Of a stretch of DNA of 52,401 nt, positions 43,544 to 47,026 are shown in pieces. The stretch is from positions 1-52,401 of the forward strand of contig RECA01000083.1 in the NCBI GenBank assembly GCA_007692435.1. The letters are read 5' to 3'. A program made the position numbers and the translations under genes. This stretch comes from Thioalkalivibrio sp. GTDB lineage: Bacteria > Pseudomonadota > Gammaproteobacteria > Ectothiorhodospirales > Ectothiorhodospiraceae. The notes below the pieces were generated by a model. The model saw only the letters and a list, made by a program, of their open reading frames with translations. It made no database searches and was not told the origin of the DNA. Numbering within the stretch: position 1 is the stretch's first letter; every line of letters begins with the position of its first letter.

Positions 43544-43660
43544 CGGGCGCGTGAGAGGCTCAGCAGTGGCCTGTCCGGGTGTATGCTGGTCAAACAGTCA
43601 CCCCGGTGATCCGCCAACATCGGGTCGCTCACTTTTGCTTATGTCTATGTAACGAGGTTG

Positions 43661-43870
43661 ATGGTTGTGAATACTGGTGTAGTGAAGTGGTTCAATGAGA
43701 GCAAGGGGTTCGGGTTCATCACTCCCGATGATGGCGGCAAGGATGTGTTCGTGCACTTCTCCGCGATCGACGGAAGTGGTTTCAAGACCTTGGCTGAAGG
43801 TCAGAAGGTCTCTTTCGAGATTCAGCAGACCCCGAAGGGGCTCGCCGCCGGTGCGGTGAAGCCCATCTAA
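43661..43870 (+). CDS. cold-shock domain protein (CspA family)
   Basis: [69 protein letters not shown]. Confidence 0.97.
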
Positions 43871-43984: not shown

Positions 43985-44100
43985 CGTAGGGCGGAAGAGG
44001 CCGAAGGCCGTCATCCGCCATCCGGCGCCGTGGGTTGCCGCAGGCTCCAGGACATTGCGGCCGCCGCGTGGCGGATGACGCTGCGCTCTTCCGCCCTACG
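43985..44100. repeat. palindromic dispersed-type element with two nested perfect arm pairs
   Basis: CGTAGGGCGGAAGAG (43985-43999) / CTCTTCCGCCCTACG (44086-44100); inner GTCATCCGCCA (44010-44020) / TGGCGGATGAC (44069-44079). Confidence 0.85.
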
Positions 44101-44130: not shown

Positions 44131-44169
44131 AACGAAAAGGCCGTGCCCCGGATCTCCCGGGGCACGGCC
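44131..44169 (-). terminator. intrinsic terminator of glnA
   Basis: Minus strand GGCCGTGCCCCGG-N5-CCGGGGCACGGCC-TTTTCGTT; 13-bp perfect stem. Confidence 0.9.
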
Positions 44170-45605: not shown

Positions 45606-45710
45606 GTAGACTCTCCTTTTAGTTGATTTGAACTGGGTTCACAGGGATCCATGCGCGCCGTCTCTCCGGAGTCCGGTCGAGCCGGCGCGCGTCATTACGC
45701 GGAGGTCACA

Positions 45711-45726
45711 AGCAGGGTTTGTGCCA
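45711..45726 (-). promoter_or_regulatory. putative sigma54 -24/-12 promoter of glnA
   Basis: Minus strand TGGCACAAACCCTGCT: GG-N10-GC spacing as in sigma54 promoters. Confidence 0.82.
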
Positions 45727-45799
45727 GCGTCATCGGGACACCGGATTGCCCCTTCCGCAGACCCCCTGATCGCTTTTGCCCTCATATCGCGCGCAGATT

Positions 45800-45814
45800 G
45801 CACTATTTCGGTGC
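45800..45814 (-). promoter_or_regulatory. putative NtrC (GlnG) enhancer site, proximal
   Basis: GCAC-TATTTCG-GTGC dyad; contains the CDF stop codon (45803-45805). Confidence 0.78.
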
Positions 45815-47026
45815 GGATTGCGATACCGTCTGCGCATTTCTGGTGCGCGCCCGAAACACGATCAGCACCTCCCCCAGTTGACCCTCGAGGCCCGGGTTCG
45901 CGCGCACCCGCTCGGCCAGCTCCACCGCGCGCTCGTTGAGAGCGGTACCGCTGGCGCTGTCCTCGAGACGCAGGGTGATGGTGACGTGCACCCGCCCCCC
46001 GAGATAGTGCAGGCCCACCTGCTCGACCAGCGCGAGCTCCGGCAACCCCTCCCATGCCTGGCGTATGTGCGCCGTGATCACGGGCCGCAGCGGCAGCCCG
46101 ACGCTGCGCACCTGGTCCTCGTCGTTCTCCGGATCCACGTGCACGGTCACGTCCCGCAGCGTGCCCATGCGGTCCCGGATCGCACGGTAGACCTCGTCGG
46201 CGATCTGGTGCCCCTCCGACACGGAGATCCTTGGCGCCACCTGGATGTGCACGTCCGCCGCAGCCTCGTTCCCCAGCTTGCGGGTCCGCAGCATGTGTGC
46301 GTCCTTGACCCCCGGCACGCCATTGATGGCCTGCTGGATCACGTCGACCTTCTCCGGCTCCAGCGCGGTGTCGATCAGCTCAGCGGCACTCCTGAACATC
46401 AGCTGCCACGCCATGTGCAGGATGAACAGGGCCACCACCAGTGCCGCCAGGGCATCCAGCCACGGCCAGCCGAGCACGGCACCGCCAATGCCGACGAAGA
46501 CGACCACCGACGAGATCGCGTCGGTGCGATGGTGCCAGGCATTCGCCTGCAGCATCGGCGACTGGATGCGCCGCGCCGCACGAACGGTGTACTGGTAGAG
46601 CCCCTCCTTGCCCACCAGCGTGAGCGCCGCGAAGATCAGCGCGGCCGGAGCGGGGCCGGTCAGCGTCTCCCAGGCCAGCAGCCGCTGCCCGGCAGTCCAG
46701 GCGATGCCCACCGCCGCGAAGGCCAGCAGCAGGCCGACCACGATGGTGGCGAGGGTCTCGATGCGGCCATGGCCGTAGGGATGGTCCCGGTCGGGCGACG
46801 CCGAGGCCTTGCCCGCGGCGAACAGCACCACGCTGTCGCTGATCAGGTCCGACAGGGTGTGGACACCGTCGGCGATCAGCGCCTGGGACTGGAACAGCCA
46901 GCCCGTGACGATCTGCGTCGTCGCCAGCAGCGAGTTCACCACGGCGGCGAGCAGGGTCGCCGCACGCGTGGCGCGGTAGCGCTCCTCGCGTGACGGCAGG
47001 GGTTCGCTTGTGGAGACCGTGCTCAC
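45803..47026 (-). CDS. cation diffusion facilitator family transporter with extended C-terminus
   Basis: TGWLFQSQALIADGVHTLSDLISDSVVLFA, DHPYGHGRIETLATIVVG, NAWHHRTDAISSVVV, C-terminal DVHIQVAPRISVSEGHQIADEV. Confidence 0.94.
   Translation of the reverse strand: MSTVSTSEPLPSREERYRATRAATLLAAVVNSLLATTQIVTGWLFQSQALIADGVHTLSDLISDSVVLFAAGKASASPDRDHPYGHGRIETLATIVVGLLLAFAAVGIAWTAGQRLLAWETLTGPAPAALIFAALTLVGKEGLYQYTVRAARRIQSPMLQANAWHHRTDAISSVVVFVGIGGAVLGWPWLDALAALVVALFILHMAWQLMFRSAAELIDTALEPEKVDVIQQAINGVPGVKDAHMLRTRKLGNEAAADVHIQVAPRISVSEGHQIADEVYRAIRDRMGTLRDVTVHVDPENDEDQVRSVGLPLRPVITAHIRQAWEGLPELALVEQVGLHYLGGRVHVTITLRLEDSASGTALNERAVELAERVRANPGLEGQLGEVLIVFRARTRNAQTVSQSAPK
45832..45846 (-). promoter_or_regulatory. 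putative NtrC (GlnG) enhancer site, distal
   Basis: GCGC-ATTTCTG-GTGC, centred 32 bp from the proximal site. Confidence 0.68.

Follow-up and report, generated by a model that had tools for sequence, protein, structure and literature searches.

The glnA gene for type I glutamine synthetase in Thioalkalivibrio sp. is very probably controlled by an NtrC-responsive promoter whose enhancer overlaps the end of the gene upstream, encoding a cation diffusion facilitator (CDF) transporter. The overlap would have followed the loss of the CDF stop codon, such that much of the tail of the transporter is translated enhancer DNA. The promoter itself is ordinary; the unusual part is the recurrent overlap of enhancer and coding sequence. 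Table 1 presents an overview of the features in the window, which is the whole 52,401-nucleotide stretch of contig RECA01000083.1 that was analysed.

Table 1. Features at and around the CDF-glnA junction of the window, in window coordinates.
Feature	Position	Strand	Details
CDF (cation diffusion facilitator) transporter gene, 407 aa	45803-47026	-	TIGR01297 E 2.9e-74; PF01545, PF16916
CDF C-terminal extension A393-K407 (ARTRNAQTVSQSAPK, then stop)	45803-45850	-	Spans the distal dyad and runs into the proximal one
Distal NtrC-type dyad GCACCAGAAATGCGC	45846-45832	-	7/8 core bases, centre -139; within the CDF 3' coding end
Proximal NtrC-type dyad GCACCGAAATAGTGC	45814-45800	-	8/8 core bases, centre -107; holds the CDF stop TAG
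Possible weak third dyad GCGCGATATGAGGGC	45778-45792	-	6/8, centre -85; speculative
Sigma54 (-24/-12) promoter element TGGCACAAACCCTGCT	45726-45711	-	GG 45725-45724, GC 45713-45712; read from sequence
Predicted glnA transcription start	45700	-	Inferred from sigma54 spacing, GG at -25/-24; 95-nt leader
glnA ribosome-binding site AGGAG	45613-45617	-	Read from sequence
glnA, type I glutamine synthetase, 469 aa	44196-45605	-	PRK09469 and TIGR00653 above curated cut-offs
Intrinsic terminator 3' of glnA	44139-44169	-	14-pair stem, T-rich tail

Promoter layout and proposed mechanism

An initial annotation of this DNA had likened the control region of glnA to the enteric glnAp2 layout, and that likeness is borne out by the positions of the elements, by an E. 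coli control, by the presence of both rpoN and NtrC in the genome and by conservation. The sigma54-type GG-N10-GC element that it placed upstream of glnA is there, and 10 of the 11 scored bases of TGGCACAAACCCTGCT agree with TGGCAC-N5-TTGCW. The transcription start and the dyad centres were predicted by a script from the sigma54 spacing, with the GG set at -25/-24. E. coli MG1655 served as the positive control for this script, which returned dyads there at -108 and -140, a spacing of 32 bp and a glnA leader of 73 nt, in keeping with the NtrC sites near -108 and -140 that the initial annotation gave for E. coli. For the window, the layout proposed at first stands, but its start at 45701 and its centres at -106 and -138 were each off by one base. 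Likewise, the two dyads are where they had been placed and are 32 bp apart, but the distal one does not end in a perfect GTGC; on the minus strand it reads GCAC-N7-GCGC, with one core mismatch. Both dyads do lie at the 3' end of the CDF gene with its TAG (45805-45803) inside the proximal one, as can be read directly.

The cation efflux and ZT_dimer domains are both found in the CDF protein. Downstream of glnA, nested inverted repeats occupy positions 43985-44100, with arms CGTAGGGCGGAAGAG/CTCTTCCGCCCTACG and CGTCATCCGCC.../...GGCGGATGACG, and resemble a repeated intergenic palindromic element. Beyond the glnA terminator, at about 43660-43870 on the minus strand, there is a short gene that by eye is cold-shock protein-like.

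At glnAp2 of E. coli, nitrogen limitation leads to phosphorylation of NtrC, which then occupies two high-affinity enhancer sites and activates the sigma54 polymerase (PMC3870243). By analogy, NtrC probably binds and activates at glnA of the window. Under nitrogen limitation, the enhancer, made up of the two 15-bp dyads some 107 and 139 bp upstream, would be bound by phosphorylated NtrC. The bound protein would then assemble into a higher-order oligomer and loop to sigma54 RNA polymerase poised at TGGCACAAACCCTGCT, where it would drive open-complex formation and thereby raise the level of glutamine synthetase, as E. coli NtrC does. In Gammaproteobacteria with a CDF gene directly upstream of glnA, the putative distal NtrC site typically starts just past the CDF stop. 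At the base of the genus or earlier, this stop appears to have been changed to a sense codon, so that the CDF reading frame extends across the distal site and, in the species of the window, ends at the TAG inside the proximal site. The site would have been retained because glnA needs it, and much of the C-terminal extension would be translated enhancer DNA.

The overlap could also be functional in itself. Transcription of the CDF gene might sweep NtrC off the enhancer or provide basal read-through into glnA, and in either case metal stress would be coupled to glutamine synthetase; this would account for the CDF-glnA gene order and for a stop codon that touches the site being kept class-wide. 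Simple scans of the CDF-glnA junction found neither a terminator nor a sigma70-like promoter. The lack of a junction terminator leaves room for CDF read-through into glnA, although as evidence it is weak, and we regard a functional overlap of this kind as unlikely.

The CDF stop codon and tail in the genus and beyond

Conservation was followed in 21 CDF-glnA junctions of the genus, taken from relatives picked by protein similarity and not as a balanced sample; since the genomes are related, the counts are not independent. The dyads and the sigma54 element are kept in some form in every one of these junctions, the latter always as GG-N10-GC (21/21). Exact (8/8) dyads near the CDF stop have the N7 spacer in 20 of the 21 members and any other spacer in none. 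Two dyads 32 bp apart are present in eight members including the window, at about -139/-107 (-151/-119 in two of the eight), and three dyads, at about -150, -120 and -98, in the other 13. The occurrence of three-dyad and two-dyad spacings in one genus suggests that the enhancer has been rebuilt within it. The one-base core departure (GCGC) of the distal dyad recurs in the relative L010, and the right half is weak in some others.

When the interval from -160 to -90 of the predicted start is viewed in the sister subclade (L017-L029), three dyads spaced by 30 and 22 bp are seen, not two at 32 bp.

The distal dyad begins at the same point of the CDF frame in the two-dyad and three-dyad groups, four bases past the Arg codon of a conserved F/Y-R. 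The position of the CDF stop varies: it may fall inside the distal dyad (tails RPCTH, RPCTE and RPCT), shortly past it or, as in the window, in the proximal dyad.

Same-strand CDF-glnA gene order is found in many families of Gammaproteobacteria, and the junction is old. A set of 106 distinct junctions was assembled from outside the genus and searched for dyads with at least 7 of 8 core bases, from -45 to +60 relative to the CDF stop. Such a dyad is present in 94 and exact in 68, compared with at most 3 of 106 with exact dyads for any other spacer length (3 to 11). In the commonest register (22 of the 106), the dyad starts at +4, counted from the first base of the stop (stop-N-GCAC), and in 43 junctions it starts at +3 to +8. 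The initial annotation had considered the overlap of enhancer and CDF gene unusual. The enhancer does overlap the end of the CDF gene, but this is not a one-off: 14 of the 21 genus members, and 15 of the 106 junctions outside, have a stop that falls entirely within a dyad. The overlap in the window appears to be derived from an arrangement seen across the class, with dyad and CDF stop side by side.

How the derived form came about can be followed in the reading frame. At the position where most relatives have the CDF stop, the window has GCG (45850-45848). The usual arrangement is F/Y-R-stop-N-GCAC or close to it, and that of the genus is F/Y-R-(CCN, GGN or GCG)-N-GCAC in the same phase; indeed, the reading phase of all 21 members is the one expected from the +4 arrangement after loss of the stop. 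The simplest account, in which we infer the direction of change, is that the CDF stop became a sense codon without an insertion or deletion, no later than the base of the genus, and that the frame then met other stops within the dyads or in the interval that separates them. A longer CDF C-terminus is also present in L148, the nearest relative outside the genus, with its stop 11 bases before the dyad; therefore, the loss of the stop may be older than the genus or may have happened twice, and its dating is uncertain. In a GlnA tree the members of the genus group as a single clade (support 99), and about 16 changes are required to explain the overlap state. As a quick FastTree of partial GlnA, the tree cannot tell gain from loss, and the number of changes implies that the overlap arose or was lost repeatedly.

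A stop codon inside a dyad may be just the next one available, since 30 of 100 exact dyads in non-coding DNA hold a stop in some frame. For this reason, the stop within the dyad was set aside as a sign of selection for the stop itself.

The initial annotation had described the tail as under dual constraint. The DNA side of this claim holds. The distal GCAC half-site is invariant in all 21 genus members, third codon position included, and the third positions of the ten codons before it all vary among the same sequences. Within the subclade of the window, the Arg codon in this half-site is CGC in 8 of 8 cases, compared with 43% of Arg codons in these genes, though the sequences are related and are not eight independent draws. 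The protein side is not supported by the data. The tail is missing from most of the related CDF proteins aligned, with short extensions in a few; it is predicted to be disordered (pLDDT below 50 for residues 397-407 in a model with a mean of 85.5); and it varies in the genus except where the half-sites fix residues.

It could nonetheless be argued that the tail has a function of its own and that the protein sequence preserves the dyad, not the reverse, the more so as the tail is nearly uniform in one subclade (RPCTH or RPCTE). This is improbable. When orthologous CDF-glnA junctions were compared, as had been proposed at the outset, the dyads were conserved while the sequence and length of the tail differed between subclades, with the half-site bases constant. 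The dyad is also retained in relatives where it is non-coding, and the predicted disorder of the tail speaks against a role as protein. The data fit a DNA site that dictates the CDF tail sequence, and the structure model and alignments suggest that the tail lacks a protein function.

Relation to known systems

The closest counterpart is glnAp2 of E. coli, which shares with the window the sigma54 element and two NtrC dyads 32 bp apart, with a one-base offset (-107/-139 in the window versus -108/-140). In E. coli, however, bipA lies divergently upstream with its start at -300, such that the enhancer falls between genes, and glnL comes after glnA; in the window, the upstream gene is that for CDF, on the same strand and overlapping the enhancer, and ntrBC is on another contig. 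No clear equivalents of the E. coli governor sites 3 and 4 are seen in the window. A scan for such sites between enhancer and promoter returned one 6/8 dyad (-85) in the window and one 7/8 dyad (-86) in L010.

The principle of the overlap is not new, as intragenic sigma54 elements that serve downstream genes are known in E. coli, for example a site in rlmD serving relA (PMC4591121). Both cases place a regulatory element of the downstream gene within upstream coding sequence. They differ in that the E. coli sigma54 element is itself intragenic, whereas in the window it is the enhancer that lies at the very end of the coding sequence, including or adjoining the stop. Other Gammaproteobacteria share the CDF-glnA gene order, the NtrC dyads and the sigma54 element with the window; in most of them the CDF stop comes just before the distal dyad, whereas in the genus of the window the coding sequence extends into or through it. 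In the open-licence literature searched, there was no report of one junction at which an enhancer site is recurrently joined to a stop codon, which is weak evidence of absence, no paper on binding sites overlapping upstream stop codons, and nothing on point for Thioalkalivibrio glnA/NtrC or CDF-glnA junctions.

The junction is a compact case of a bacterial enhancer and a coding sequence sharing bases, with more than 100 homologous junctions in which the two are separate, abutting or overlapping. With such a set one can test directly how stop codons come to lie in regulatory DNA, and whether a binding site that is not free to change can give rise, as a side effect, to a new protein tail. It also carries a warning for annotation: where a C-terminal tail is conserved, the constraint may be on the DNA alone.

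Regulators and genome-wide specificity

The genome encodes rpoN (sigma54) and a single NtrC above the curated cut-off, on a contig other than that of glnA and adjoined by ntrB. The C-terminal domain of this NtrC matches the solved NtrC DNA-binding domain 1ntc at 4.5e-18. With sigma54, NtrC, NtrB and the dyads present, all parts for an NtrC-activated glnA promoter are available. Two exact dyads 30 bp apart are also found upstream of ntrB, about 300 bases away (L241 747-761 and 777-791), which suggests that ntrBC may itself be under NtrC control.

Since the genome holds at least 13 sigma54-activator domains, another enhancer-binding protein might use the dyads in place of NtrC. This is very improbable: only one protein exceeds the NtrC cut-off, the ntrBC operon carries the same dyads, and the controlled gene is glnA.

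The dyads are inverted repeats at the 3' end of a gene and might for that reason be taken to act in the CDF transcript, as RNA hairpins or as its terminator, and not as DNA bound by a protein. This reading is very improbable and was rejected, as the segment 45860-45780 folds no better than shuffles (z -0.06), no terminator-like site was found around the junction, the four-pair stems have seven-base loops without T runs, and the spacing and position of the dyads track the sigma54 site and not the CDF stop, which moves among relatives.

Chance matches in a GC-rich gene end are just as hard to credit, even though the distal dyad is imperfect and a single dyad means little. By pattern search, the 2.71 Mb genome contains 105 exact GCAC-N7-GTGC dyads, roughly double the number for the reversed control. 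Since single dyads are this common, the weight rests on their combination with the sigma54 element and on its conservation. An exact dyad followed 50-80 bases on by TGGCAY-N6-TGC occurs once in the genome, at glnA, and not at all in the reversed control. The same pattern has a match in 23 of 30 genus genomes, compared with one match in total for its reverse. With this genome-unique combination, and with conservation in the genus and a spacer-specific signal at homologous junctions across the class, chance was rejected for the two dyads taken together.

A second conserved dyad-plus-sigma54 site was noticed in several members of the genus (G040:C1:203746, G005:C1:455057, G001:C2:433715, G022:C9:44519 and others), with a common GCAACAGGTGTTG stretch between its two elements.
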